A DNA stretch of 64,000 bases. Origin: Rhizobium sp. BK418 (GTDB lineage: Bacteria; Pseudomonadota; Alphaproteobacteria; Rhizobiales; Rhizobiaceae). Of this stretch, positions 33,035-36,590 are shown piece by piece; the first letter of the stretch is position 1, and every line of letters starts with the position of its first letter. The stretch is from positions 372,001 to 436,000 of the forward strand of contig NZ_SLZK01000001.1 of the NCBI RefSeq assembly GCF_004341105.1. The letters are read 5' to 3'. The notes under the pieces were generated by a model. That model searched no databases, was not told the origin of the DNA, and saw nothing but the letters and a program-made list of their open reading frames with translations. The position numbers and the translations under genes were made by a program.

Positions 33035-33631
33035 ATGGCGAAGATTCTCGTCCTCTACTACTCGGCTTACGGTCACATCGAAACCATGGCTTACGCCGTA
33101 GCCGAAGGCGCAAGGTCCGCCGGCGCTGATGTCGTCGTTAAGCGCGTTCCGGAACTGGTTTCCGAAGAAGTCGCCAAGGCTTCCCACTACAAGCTCGATC
33201 AGGCAGCGCCGATCGCCACCGTCGACGAACTGCCCGACTACGACGCGATCATCGTCGGCGCCGGCACGCGTTTCGGCACGGTTGCATCGCAGATGCGCAA
33301 CTTCTGGGACCAGACGGGCGGCCTGTGGTTCACCGGCAAGCTCGTCGGCAAGGTCGGCTCGATGTTCACTTCCTCCGCGACGCAGCACGGCGGCCAGGAA
33401 TCGACGATCCTCGGCTTCGTTCCGACCTTCCTTCATCAGGGTATGGCTTATGTCGGCCTTCCCTATGCATTCCAGGGCCAGATGGGCACGGAAGAGGTCA
33501 AGGGCGGCTCGCCCTACGGCGCATCCACCATCACCAACGGCGACGGCTCTCGCCAGCCGTCGGCAATCGAGCTCGACGCGGCCAGGTATCAGGGCGCACA
33601 CGTCGCCAAAATTGCTGCAAAGCTCGCTTAA
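33035..33631 (+). CDS. wrbA: NAD(P)H:quinone oxidoreductase WrbA
   Basis: WrbA is an FMN-dependent flavodoxin-like quinone reductase that protects against redox-cycling quinones. The 198-residue protein starts [20 protein letters not shown], the FMN phosphate-binding loop. [36 protein letters not shown] and [18 protein letters not shown] follow, all WrbA hallmarks. The ATG at 33035 sits eight bases after GGAG; the upstream ATG at 33023 overlaps that site. A strong terminator follows. Confidence 0.96.
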
Positions 33632-33757: not shown

Positions 33758-33843
33758 GCGAGCGTGGCGAAACTGGTAGACGCAAGGGACTTAAAATCCC
33801 TCGGCCTTAGGCTATACGGGTTCGATCCCCGTCGCTCGCACCA
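33758..33843 (+). tRNA. tRNA-Leu (anticodon UAA)
   Basis: The 86-nt cloverleaf has acceptor GCGAGCG paired with CGCTCGC, a class II long variable arm and encoded CCA. The anticodon loop CTTAAAA places UAA at 33792-33794. A partial duplicate of its 3' half lies 2.1 kb downstream, suggesting this gene was an integration target. Confidence 0.97.
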
Positions 33844-34043
33844 CATTGAATTATCGTTCAAAAAGTAGCTTATCCTCCTTCGAACAGAAATCCCGCTATT
33901 TCCTCAGGGGGGCATCCGAAGCGCTGGCTGCTCATATCATCAGGGGACGCTAATTTAGATAGGCGATCGCAACGGCCTGCGGTAAAATGGCTTGAGGCCG
34001 CCAATTCCGGTCTGGTCACGGCGAACCCTTTGCTGGCAAATCT

Positions 34044-35828
34044 ATGAAACAAAGACTAGCAGCAGTTCTGGCCGCCGACATGGCAGGCTATAGCCGACTG
34101 ATGGAGGCGGACGAAGCAGGCACGCTCGCTCGCCTCAGAACCCATCGCATAGAGTTGATCGACCCTGCCGTCGCCAAAAATGAGGGCCGCATCATCAAGA
34201 CGACGGGCGACGGCATGCTGGTCGAATTCCAGAGTGTGACCGACGCTGTCAGATGCGCCGTCGAAATCCAGCAGCGCATGAAACGGCGCAATTCCGACGT
34301 GCCGCAGGATCGACGGATCGAATTCCGGATCGGCATCAATGTCGGCGATATCATTTTCGACGACGATGACATTTTCGGCGACGGTGTGAACATAGCCGCG
34401 CGCGTCGAACAAATGGCCGATGTCGGAGGTATCTGCATCACGGCCGCGGTAGCGACGCAAATCGCCGACCGACTTGAAGTGGCCATCGAGGACCTTGGCG
34501 AGAAGGCACTGAAGAATATCAGCCGTCCGGTTCACCTTTATCGGGTCGGGGTCGACGACACCGTCCTGGCGGCCGCGGCGGATGCCGCGGACGGCAAGCG
34601 GACCGCTTCCAAACCCACGATCGTCGTTCTTCCCTTTAATAACATGAGCGGTGATCCCGAACAGGAGTTCTTTGCCGACGGTCTGACCGAGGATATCCTC
34701 ACCGAACTGTCGCGCCGCCACGAGCTCTTCGTCATCTCGCGCAACTCCAGCTTCGTCTACAAGAACCAACCCGTCAATGTGCGCGAGGTGGCAGAGAAGC
34801 TCGGCGCCCAGTACTTGGTCGAAGGCAGCGTAAGGAAAATCGGCGACAGGGTGCGCGTCACGGTCCAGTTGATCGATGCTGTCAACGATGCTCATGTCTG
34901 GGCGGACAAATACGACCGCAGACTCGACGACATTTTCGCCATCCAGGACGAGGTGACTGCCGCGATCGCCGCCACGCTTCCCGGCCGCGTCGAAGCGGCC
35001 CAGCGAGACCAACTCGCCCGCACGAAGCCGGCAAACATGGCCGCCTACGAATGTGTGCTCGCGGCCAAGGTGCTGCACCATAGAAGCAGCGCCCCGGACA
35101 ATGAGCAAGCCCAGACGCTGATCGGCAGGGCCATAGAGATCGACCCAGGCTATGCGCATGCTCATGCCTGGCGGGCTTGCATCCTCGGGCAGGCCTGGGT
35201 GAACGACTGGTGCAGTGACAAGGATGCGGTCTGGGCGCAAGTCAACTCCGAGCTGGAGCGGGCGCTTTCGCTCGACGACAACGACGCCGACGTGCATCGC
35301 ATTCTCGCCGCGGTCAATGTCAACAACAACCAACTGACGACGGCACGCTATCATCAGGAGCGCGCCCTCTCGCTCAACCCCAATTACGACCTGGTGGTGG
35401 TTCAGCAGGGTGAGTTGCTGACCTGGCTCGGCCGGCCGGAAGAAGGAGTCGAATGGATCCGCAAGGCCATGCGGCTCAACCCGCATCATCCGGCACGTTT
35501 TTGGAGCCACCTCGGAAAGGCCCACTTCACCGCCCGGCAATATGGCGAGGCGATCGAGGCATTCATGCATCTTTCCGCCATGGACCACGTCCAGCACGCT
35601 TTCGTGGCGGCCTGCTATGGCTGGCTTGGCGACGATATTGCCGCATCTGCACATTTGAAGCAGGTCAAAGCGCTTGCGCCCGACTTCGGCATCAAGCCGT
35701 TCCTTGCTACGCTGCACTACACCCAAGAATCCGATACGCAGCATATTCGCGAGGGGCTCATCAAGGCGGGTGCCGGCGAGTTCGTTTCAGCGGCCAGCGA
35801 CTTGGAAAAACGCAGGAACCTTGGCTGA
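34044..35828 (+). CDS. Class III adenylate cyclase with TolB-like and TPR regions
   Basis: This 594-residue protein makes cAMP from ATP. The catalytic domain occupies about residues 1-170: metal-binding D12 (AADMAGYSRLM) and D56 (TTGDGMLVEF), and FGDGVNIAARVEQ near the transition-state Asn/Arg pair. A TolB-N/CadC-like segment follows (PTIVVLPFNNMSGDPEQE and GLTEDILTELSRRHE, about 190-330), then TPR-type helices to the end. The architecture is common in rhizobia, which have many such cyclases. There is no signal or membrane segment. The ATG has only a poor ribosome-binding site. The gene is the sole clear occupant of the interval between tRNA-Leu and its partial copy. Confidence 0.93.
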   Translation: MKQRLAAVLAADMAGYSRLMEADEAGTLARLRTHRIELIDPAVAKNEGRIIKTTGDGMLVEFQSVTDAVRCAVEIQQRMKRRNSDVPQDRRIEFRIGINVGDIIFDDDDIFGDGVNIAARVEQMADVGGICITAAVATQIADRLEVAIEDLGEKALKNISRPVHLYRVGVDDTVLAAAADAADGKRTASKPTIVVLPFNNMSGDPEQEFFADGLTEDILTELSRRHELFVISRNSSFVYKNQPVNVREVAEKLGAQYLVEGSVRKIGDRVRVTVQLIDAVNDAHVWADKYDRRLDDIFAIQDEVTAAIAATLPGRVEAAQRDQLARTKPANMAAYECVLAAKVLHHRSSAPDNEQAQTLIGRAIEIDPGYAHAHAWRACILGQAWVNDWCSDKDAVWAQVNSELERALSLDDNDADVHRILAAVNVNNNQLTTARYHQERALSLNPNYDLVVVQQGELLTWLGRPEEGVEWIRKAMRLNPHHPARFWSHLGKAHFTARQYGEAIEAFMHLSAMDHVQHAFVAACYGWLGDDIAASAHLKQVKALAPDFGIKPFLATLHYTQESDTQHIREGLIKAGAGEFVSAASDLEKRRNLG

Positions 35829-35967
35829 ATTCCACATCTACTGAGCGCTGACTTAAGTAGAGCCTCGCGCGTCTGTAATAACTCCATCAAGGCGGAGATG
35901 CCCCCGCATCAGGGACGATTGAAAACACCGGGGACCCGCTTAATCCGTCCGGTTCTATACCATGCTA

Positions 35968-36019
35968 ACTTAAGATCCCTCAGCCTTAGGCTATACGGTT
36001 CGATCCCCGTCGCTTGCAC
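35968..36019 (+). pseudogene. Partial, decayed copy of the 3' half of tRNA-Leu
   Basis: These 52 bases match 33788-33840 of the tRNA-Leu gene from the anticodon loop to the end of the acceptor, with three substitutions and one missing G in the T-arm. The 5' half and the CCA are absent. A 3'-end tRNA duplicate is the classic scar of site-specific integration. Here no integrase remains and the interval holds only the cyclase gene. Confidence 0.85.
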
Positions 36020-36154
36020 TCTCTTTATAAATCCGTTCGAATATGCTTGTATAATGTGAATAAACCATAGGCAGCGCTTGTCTATGGCCTCAACGGTGCA
36101 AAAAATGTAGGCACTGTGCGGTTGAGTAAGTATTGTCTTAGTGGGAGTAAGGCG

Positions 36155-36286
36155 ATGGTTTACGACTGGGATGGAGCAAGGACGCGGCGCATCAGACTTT
36201 TCAAGATGAGCGCGCTTCTACTCTTGGGAACAGCGGTGGCAGCGGTGCCCCTCTTCTTCTGGGCCTTGCAGTTGCGCGGATACTAA
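36155..36286 (+). CDS. 43-residue single-pass membrane protein
   Basis: A short frame starts MVYDWDGARTRRIRLFKMSA and continues with one hydrophobic segment (LLLLGTAVAAVPLFFWAL, residues 21-38) and ends QLRGY. The positively charged stretch before it predicts an N-in topology. GGAG followed by TAAGGCG lies at good spacing before the ATG at 36155. The stop overlaps the end of the methyltransferase pseudogene on the other strand. The combination of ribosome-binding site, basic flank and clean helix makes it a likely real small protein. The function is unknown. Confidence 0.65.
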   Translation: MVYDWDGARTRRIRLFKMSALLLLGTAVAAVPLFFWALQLRGY

Positions 36287-36590
36287 ACAGATTTGAGGTG
36301 ACTGAGCCGATGCTCACGCGCCAGCAGGTCGCGCTTTCGCTTGAAGCCCCAGCGGTAGCCGGAGGTCGAGCCGTCCTTCTTGATGACGCGGTGACATGGC
36401 ACGAGAATGGCTATCGGGTTTGAAGCAATTGCTTCGGTTACGTCTCGGGCATCGCGCGTGCCCAAATTAGCCGCCAGCGCACCATAATTCGTCGTCTCAC
36501 CCATGGGAATGGTACACAGCATCGACCAGACCTTGGTCTGGTACGGAGTCCCCGTTCAAACGAAAAAGAGGCCCGCACTGGAAGCGCGGA
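36283..36590 (-). pseudogene. Broken Ada/Ogt-type O6-alkylguanine-DNA methyltransferase
   Basis: The C-terminal half is well preserved: YQTKVWSMLCTIPMGETTNY, then the active-site PCHRV and SGYRWGFKRKRDLLARE. The open part now starts at 36522, too late to make a full protein. Just upstream the family sequence continues as PLFRLNG in another frame. The junction is at a run of four Gs (complement of about 36550-36553); removing one G would rejoin LNG with TPYQ. Further upstream a TAG and loss of similarity show the N-terminal part is gone. An intact relative lies at 54297-54860. Confidence 0.8.

Follow-up and report, generated by a model that had tools for sequence, protein, structure and literature searches.

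The cyclase islet and its flanks

We examined a 64,000-nucleotide stretch of the Rhizobium sp. BK418 genome (the window), in which a short islet lies between an intact tRNA-Leu(UAA) gene and a decayed partial copy of that gene. The features of the locus are given below, with the evidence for each in parentheses.

33035..33631, + strand: wrbA-like flavodoxin gene, left host flank (Pfam Flavodoxin_1, 2.7e-11)
33758..33843, + strand: tRNA-Leu(UAA), intact, target site, attL side of the islet (ARAGORN, Rfam, pattern)
33788..33798, + strand: GACTTAAAATC, tRNA positions 31-41 in the anticodon loop; crossover stretch of the element in G147 (G147 attL/attR, intron position in the replacement tRNA)
33844..34043, + strand: left non-coding part of the islet (common to G095, G097, G049 and G147, and in part to G100)
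34044..35828, + strand: class III adenylate/guanylate cyclase, 594 aa (ORF, Pfam)
35829..35967, + strand: right non-coding part of the islet (no match among the fetched relatives at E 1e-3)
35968..36019, + strand: decayed copy of tRNA positions 32-84; attR remnant, the displaced original 3' part (alignment, BLAST)
36020..36154, + strand: native 3' flank of the tRNA (resembles the DNA directly after the tRNA in empty-site relatives)
36155..36286, + strand: conserved small ORF of 43 aa, right host flank marker (tblastn in relatives)

ARAGORN and Rfam agree on a plus-strand tRNA at 33758, which ARAGORN reads as tRNA-Leu(UAA) at 33758-33843; this is the sole match to the tRNA-Leu(UAA) pattern in the genome. 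By local alignment, the remnant copies tRNA positions 32-84 over 52 bases with three substitutions and one deleted base, and against the whole genome its BLAST match has E = 1.3e-14, far beyond chance. A first-pass annotation of this DNA had described a decayed repeat of the tRNA 3' half, 52 bases long and 2.1 kb downstream, and the alignment bears this out to the base. None of the 5' half of the tRNA (positions 1-31) is included in the alignment, whose start at position 32 falls within the crossover stretch of the G147 element described below. The flavodoxin gene upstream, which we take to be wrbA, served as the query that located the homologous locus in relatives. On the other side, the small ORF has tblastn matches in 12 other genomes of a 20-genome set and no match in a Pfam search. 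Between it and vanZ, the window holds a 5'-truncated fragment of an O6-methylguanine-DNA methyltransferase gene (36292-36555, - strand; Pfam DNA_binding_1, 3.1e-29). The gap between small ORF and vanZ is 473 bases in the window; in eight close relatives it measures 20-35 bases, and in two about 4.6 kb. L137 and L138 (G134 and G127) have another insertion there, of about 4.6 kb.

The cyclase is encoded on the same strand as the tRNA and contains a Guanylate_cyc domain (PF00211, 1.1e-12, above the Pfam cut-off), TPR repeats, and a TolB_N-like part that scores below the cut-off. Motifs of what we take to be the usual metal-binding and transition-state kind are visible in its translation. The protein may produce cAMP. 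Class III adenylate cyclases with TPR repeats are a known type in rhizobia; the window's protein is like them in its cyclase domain, followed by the TolB_N-like part and TPR repeats, and differs in location alone, nothing else unusual having been found. Three other ORFs of at least 80 aa overlap the gene (34056-35744, -; 34088-34486, -; 35453-35851, +), two of them antisense to it, and none has a Pfam match. The rest of the islet amounts to 200 + 139 bases, so that an integrase has no room in it. The first-pass annotation, which had listed a class III cyclase as the one gene of the interval and noted that no integrase remains, was thus correct on both counts. It had also suggested codon usage as a check on transfer, and here we found no foreign sign: GC3 is 0.741 in the cyclase gene, 0.749 in the downstream dehydratase gene (thrD) and 0.769 in wrbA. 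A foreign composition was therefore rejected, GC3 being like that of the neighbours. In 15 of 15 pairs of the six genomes with the islet, the dN/dS of the cyclase was 0.09-0.16, so the gene has been kept for its protein; by this measure it is under purifying selection.

Empty sites in relatives

The search with wrbA covered 148 genomes of the genus, including the window's own; 131 matched and 17 did not. The 124 loci examined in other genomes lie around 118 wrbA orthologues and six wrbA fragments, six matched genomes having been left out. At four loci (L120, L123, L124 and L125, from G139, G024, G101 and G052) wrbA occurs only as fragments beside the same tRNA locus. A site was called empty when wrbA, a complete tRNA and the small ORF (+ strand) were present, with at most 400 bases from tRNA to small ORF and no cyclase gene. 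By this definition 23 of the 124 loci are empty, counted in fetched stretches that differ in reach, some of them falling short of some markers.

In the seven nearest empty sites (L130, L131, L134, L135, L136, L137 and L138), the native flank follows directly after the CCA of the tRNA. The sequence at that point is TCTTTATAAA or TCTTCATAAA, and the sequence after the remnant in the window is TCTTTATAAA. Because the flank of the empty sites is like the flank beyond the remnant, the remnant represents the tRNA's original 3' part, since displaced, and 33844-36019 was inserted into the tRNA-Leu(UAA) gene, oriented with the intact gene at its left end and the displaced part at its right. That empty sites exist shows that the islet was acquired. 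The locus thus has a direct repeat of the tRNA 3' part at both ends and an empty site with continuous flank in relatives; since it holds no integrase gene, we call it an islet and a remnant, not an active element. These comparisons, which the first-pass annotation had proposed, lend support to its reading of integration at a tRNA with one retained or transferred cyclase gene, and contradict an interval conserved everywhere with no empty site, the outcome that it had named as contrary to that reading.

Distribution of the islet

DNA of the islet was found at 92-94% in G097, G049, G147, G095 and G100. In G097, G049 and G095 it lies at an intact tRNA, and each has its own decayed remnant (positions 61-86, 41-84 and 41-82, respectively), while in G147 it lies beside a tRNA split by a 42-kb element. 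G100 has the islet at another locus, the flanks of which are adjacent (gap of 50-55 bases) in G000, G147, G097 and G108 and 17-20 kb apart in G049 and G095. As the islet of G100 lies elsewhere, at a site that is empty in relatives, it has moved a second time. Less similar cyclase orthologues (75-83%) are present at other loci in 11 other genomes of the genus, and the flanks of eight of these, compared as ORF lists, fall into three unlike neighbourhoods. An orthologue at 79-83% is also carried by 15 plasmid records, 11 from Sinorhizobium, three from Rhizobium and one from Pararhizobium.

Larger elements at the same tRNA

In G147, wrbA is followed by tRNA positions 1-66 and then by 42 kb of other DNA; beyond this come tRNA positions 24-86, the cyclase islet and a remnant of positions 61-86. 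It follows that a larger element entered the tRNA after the islet was there. Elements of the same kind occupy this tRNA in G063 (51 kb), G124 (about 38 kb), G045 (32 kb) and G058 (9.4 kb); with that of G147, the loci are L126, L170-L179 and L237. The tRNA-Leu(UAA) site is an integration hotspot. In all five elements an integrase gene adjoins a truncated tRNA 5' half ending at position 66-68, and since this attL copy lacks the acceptor end, the native gene should be dead.

The integrase of G147 matches a PHROG integrase (1.1e-33) and Pfam Phage_integrase (1.2e-4, below the curated cut-off), and those of G063, G124, G045 and G058 are 86-89% identical to it. Among the 148 genomes, searched up to E 1e-60, integrases at this identity occur only in these five, and seven more genomes have homologues or fragments at 57-65%. 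Nine proteins of G147 were scanned: three are integrase-like, two have no Pfam match, and the others are a MobQ-type relaxase (MobA_MobL, 6.5e-54; MobQ just under the cut-off), a VirD4-type coupling protein, a Fic protein and an M48 peptidase. Homologues of the relaxase (67-71%) and the coupling protein (78-80%) are present in G063, G124 and G045, and neither was found in the 9.4-kb element of G058. Going by their integrase, relaxase and coupling-protein features, we call these five putative integrative mobilizable elements.

The junctions of the G147 element allowed us to locate its crossover. From the two junctions we reconstructed the native form of the tRNA, which agrees with G123 and G127; its stem (GCAAGAGACTT ... 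TCTCTCGG) differs from that of the element (GCAAGGGACTT ... CCCTCGG) on both sides of GACTTAAAATC. In attL and attR, the switch between native and element sequence lies within the 11 bases of this stretch.

Intron-bearing replacement tRNAs

Each of the five elements carries a tRNA-Leu(UAA) that ARAGORN reads as interrupted in the anticodon loop, between GACTT and AAAAT, by a 203-205-base intron; this position falls within the 11-base crossover stretch defined in G147. Among ten loci scanned with Rfam, the group I intron model RF00028 matched in the seven with an intron-bearing tRNA, namely L126 (G147), L031 (G058) and five others; the elements of G063, G124 and G045 were read by ARAGORN alone. 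In the loci from L031 on, some of which overlap, ARAGORN reports 55 intron-bearing tRNA-Leu(UAA) genes, with the intron always after the first anticodon base.

Within the genus, the intron form was found in 25 of the 148 genomes at 91-100% identity. A pattern search allowing two mismatches, which may miss divergent or cut genes, detected no intact intronless tRNA-Leu(UAA) in those 25: 20 gave no match and five only the truncated 5' half. The genomes of the genus with no intronless match number 26, of which 20 have the intron form, four (G022, G137, G138 and G139) have divergent forms and two (G126 and G133) have the gene at a contig end. Outside the genus, 35 of the genomes drawn matched over the tRNA (G786, matching in the intron only, was left out), and a looser pattern with one mismatch found no intronless tRNA-Leu(UAA) in 34 of the 35. 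Applied to five control genomes without the intron form, this looser pattern matched four and gave nothing in one. At 18 of 26 fetched loci outside the genus, ARAGORN reads a tRNA-Leu(UAA) whose intron follows the first anticodon base, and our count outside the genus rests on these confirmed loci, in whose genomes there was no intronless match. At the other eight, including that of G447, it reads other tRNAs or ends (two of them tRNA-Ser). G447 has a divergent intronless tRNA-Leu(UAA) together with a truncated half like that of G129. Matches to the intron-tRNA query that ARAGORN reads as other tRNAs occur in other genera at L219, L222, L224, L225, L231, L233 and L234, and intron-bearing tRNA-Leu(UAA) genes outside Rhizobium include those of Roseibium sediminicola (L196) and Hoeflea marina (L203).

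Reading UUA codons requires tRNA-Leu(UAA). Where the intron form is the sole such tRNA detected in a genome, cells presumably remove the intron; we suspect that it is self-splicing. More than one kind of tRNA seems to have served as a replacement. A different tRNA-Leu(UAA), divergent and lacking an intron, is present in G008, G009, G015 and G129; in the last of these it comes shortly after a native gene that is cut at position 42. At L069, L120, L115 and L116, a native tRNA-Leu 3' half (from about position 29-34) lies near a complete divergent tRNA-Leu (81-86%); the two lie about 14 bases apart in L069 and L120, and about 2.9 kb apart in L115 and L116. This arrangement may represent yet another type of replacement.

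A tRNA-Leu-like gene with an intron, missing from the annotation and sharing about 73% identity with the rhizobial gene, is present at L204:5001-5299 (NC_004464.2, 61823-62121) and on other plasmids; in each of the three plasmid records inspected, aac(3)-IId lies close by. Matches to it occur in 1280 plasmid records, mostly from enterobacteria; the match is at 99% or more in 1273 of them, and at least 80% of the gene is present in 1257. The intron ends given by ARAGORN for the plasmid copies are omitted because a stop anticodon resulted. Viral contigs gave no exact match to the intron-tRNA pattern, and seven phage records match the intron tRNA, none of them over 80% of the query.

The intron tRNA lies in the fetched stretch beside wrbA at 15 of 125 tabulated loci. 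Twelve of the 15 also hold a distant relative of the C-terminal part of the cyclase (23-25% identity, residues 191-576), and no integrase of the family at 86% identity or more was found in 13 of the 15 (all but G147 and G058). One such TPR-type protein, that of G058, was scanned and matched a TPR model weakly. The 13 loci look like worn-down elements that have left a tRNA and one TPR-type gene, parallel to the islet of the window.

Origin of the islet

Considered as a whole, 33844-36019 is, with high probability, best explained as an old insertion into tRNA-Leu(UAA) that holds one TPR class III cyclase gene. A mobile element bearing a copy of the tRNA from the anticodon to the 3' end would have recombined with the tRNA gene; the enzyme was most likely a tyrosine integrase with the anticodon loop as its site of action. 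The element's copy would have restored the tRNA and the original 3' part, displaced 2.1 kb downstream, would then have been left to decay; what remains is the one cyclase gene with its TPR repeats, under purifying selection. The involvement of an integrase and the original size of the inserted element are inferred. Several points count against this explanation: the islet has no integrase, the composition of its cyclase gene is not foreign, and in the elements of the relatives the homology to the tRNA stops at position 66-68 and the tRNA is destroyed, unlike at the islet, where it was restored. The islet and these elements are therefore not of the same type. For this reason we think it improbable that the islet is a shrunken member of the family in G147, G063, G124, G045 and G058, even though it uses the same tRNA and its remnant starts in the same anticodon-loop stretch. 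Those elements leave the tRNA unrestored and bring a replacement, the islet brings none, and its non-coding flanks match no fetched element at E 1e-3, bar the islet copy beside the element of G147. Far harder still to credit is a decayed second tRNA-Leu gene in tandem with an ancestral cyclase, an outcome that the first-pass annotation had allowed for. While tRNA genes can duplicate in tandem and the remnant is clearly derived from a tRNA, the remnants of the window, G095, G097 and G049 show no 5' half, nothing is there in empty-site relatives, and tRNA and small ORF lie close together with the cyclase absent at the 23 empty loci. We rejected this candidate on the empty sites and the missing 5' half.

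An insertion at this tRNA could have reached the six genomes by descent from one ancestral event or by spread between species through homologous recombination via the wrbA side. In the wrbA tree the six islet genomes form one group (local support 0.960), and G108, which has an empty site with no visible scar, falls outside it. The thrD tree does not unite them; G108 pairs with G097 there (0.999) and in the vanZ tree (0.989), and is the sister of G097 in a concatenated tree of wrbA, thrD and a third gene (0.999). Since the wrbA and thrD trees disagree, recombination has probably occurred across the flank near the tRNA. Among the six genomes, the dS of the cyclase is 0.105-0.266. The cyclase has the lower dS in 14 of 15 pairs when compared with thrD (all but G147-G095) and in 14 of 15 when compared with wrbA (all but G147-G097), which also favours spread. 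On the other hand, the remnants have decayed differently in each genome, so any spread was not recent, and single-gene trees are weak evidence, that of vanZ especially, with its one implausibly long branch. We regard spread between species as a serious possibility, though at somewhat less than an even chance; the sequences cannot separate it from one ancestral insertion with later replacement in G108.

Discussion

The islet itself is an ordinary, well-supported tRNA-bracketed scar of a known kind, and the site and the elements of the relatives are of more interest. As far as the available text of PMC8371274 describes tRNA islets and islands with anticodon-loop attachment (the sub-locations of Williams 2002, cited therein), the islet is like them in the 3' duplication at the far end, the intact tRNA at the near end, the empty site in relatives and the start of the repeat in the anticodon loop; it differs from the islands of that paper in having no integrase and one cargo gene.

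The elements of the relatives have a parallel in prophages of S. meliloti, which inactivate tRNA-Leu(UAG) and carry a replacement tRNA-Leu(UAG); the accessible part of that report calls the replacement of a tRNA broken by an integrated element poorly described (PMC11476347). Both break a tRNA-Leu and bring a divergent replacement. Here, by comparison with the prophages in the excerpts of PMC11476347, the tRNA is tRNA-Leu(UAA), there are relaxase genes, and a group I intron interrupts the replacement at the crossover stretch. The intron belongs to the same class, and sits in the anticodon loop of the same tRNA, as that of cyanobacterial tRNA-Leu(UAA); most bacterial tRNA group I introns, according to the same excerpted source, are at 37/38 (PMC4033280). 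Unlike the cyanobacterial intron as presented there, the one described here is found in Hyphomicrobiales, has a patchy distribution, lies after the first anticodon base, and in five genomes is carried on mobile elements that split the native gene.

Randau and Soll put forward the idea, argued for archaea, that a tRNA gene resists integration when it is disrupted (as cited in the available portions of PMC4390854 and PMC4033280). Intron-containing tRNA genes of thaumarchaea nevertheless serve as targets, as the accessible text of PMC8371274 has it, which argues against a general rule of protection by disruption. The same text cites a proposal that tRNA introns are transferred via an element's attachment site in archaea (Sugahara 2012). 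Among the matches listed in our literature search, which covered titles and the starts of abstracts and left subscription papers mostly outside, we found no report of an intron-bearing replacement tRNA on a mobile element.

We lean, with reserve, towards the following model. A family of elements would inactivate the host's only tRNA-Leu(UAA) by a crossover in the anticodon loop and supply a replacement in which the target is interrupted by a self-splicing intron. The host would become dependent on the element, whose own replacement tRNA would be immune; elements of the same specificity would be shut out, and the intron tRNA would persist as the sole copy after the element decays. Protection and dependence are suggested by the anatomy of these loci, and a replacement tRNA that proved successful might also have carried the intron along by chance. 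As intronless replacements exist, the intron is not required for replacement.

Altogether, the islet shows an integration that now holds one selected gene. Element-borne replacement tRNAs have already been reported, and it is the intron-interrupted, presumably target-proof one that we did not find in print. At this site tRNA replacement and protection by disruption would meet in bacteria, and because the crossover is narrowed to 11 bases (in one genome) with the intron inside them, the idea of protection is directly testable.
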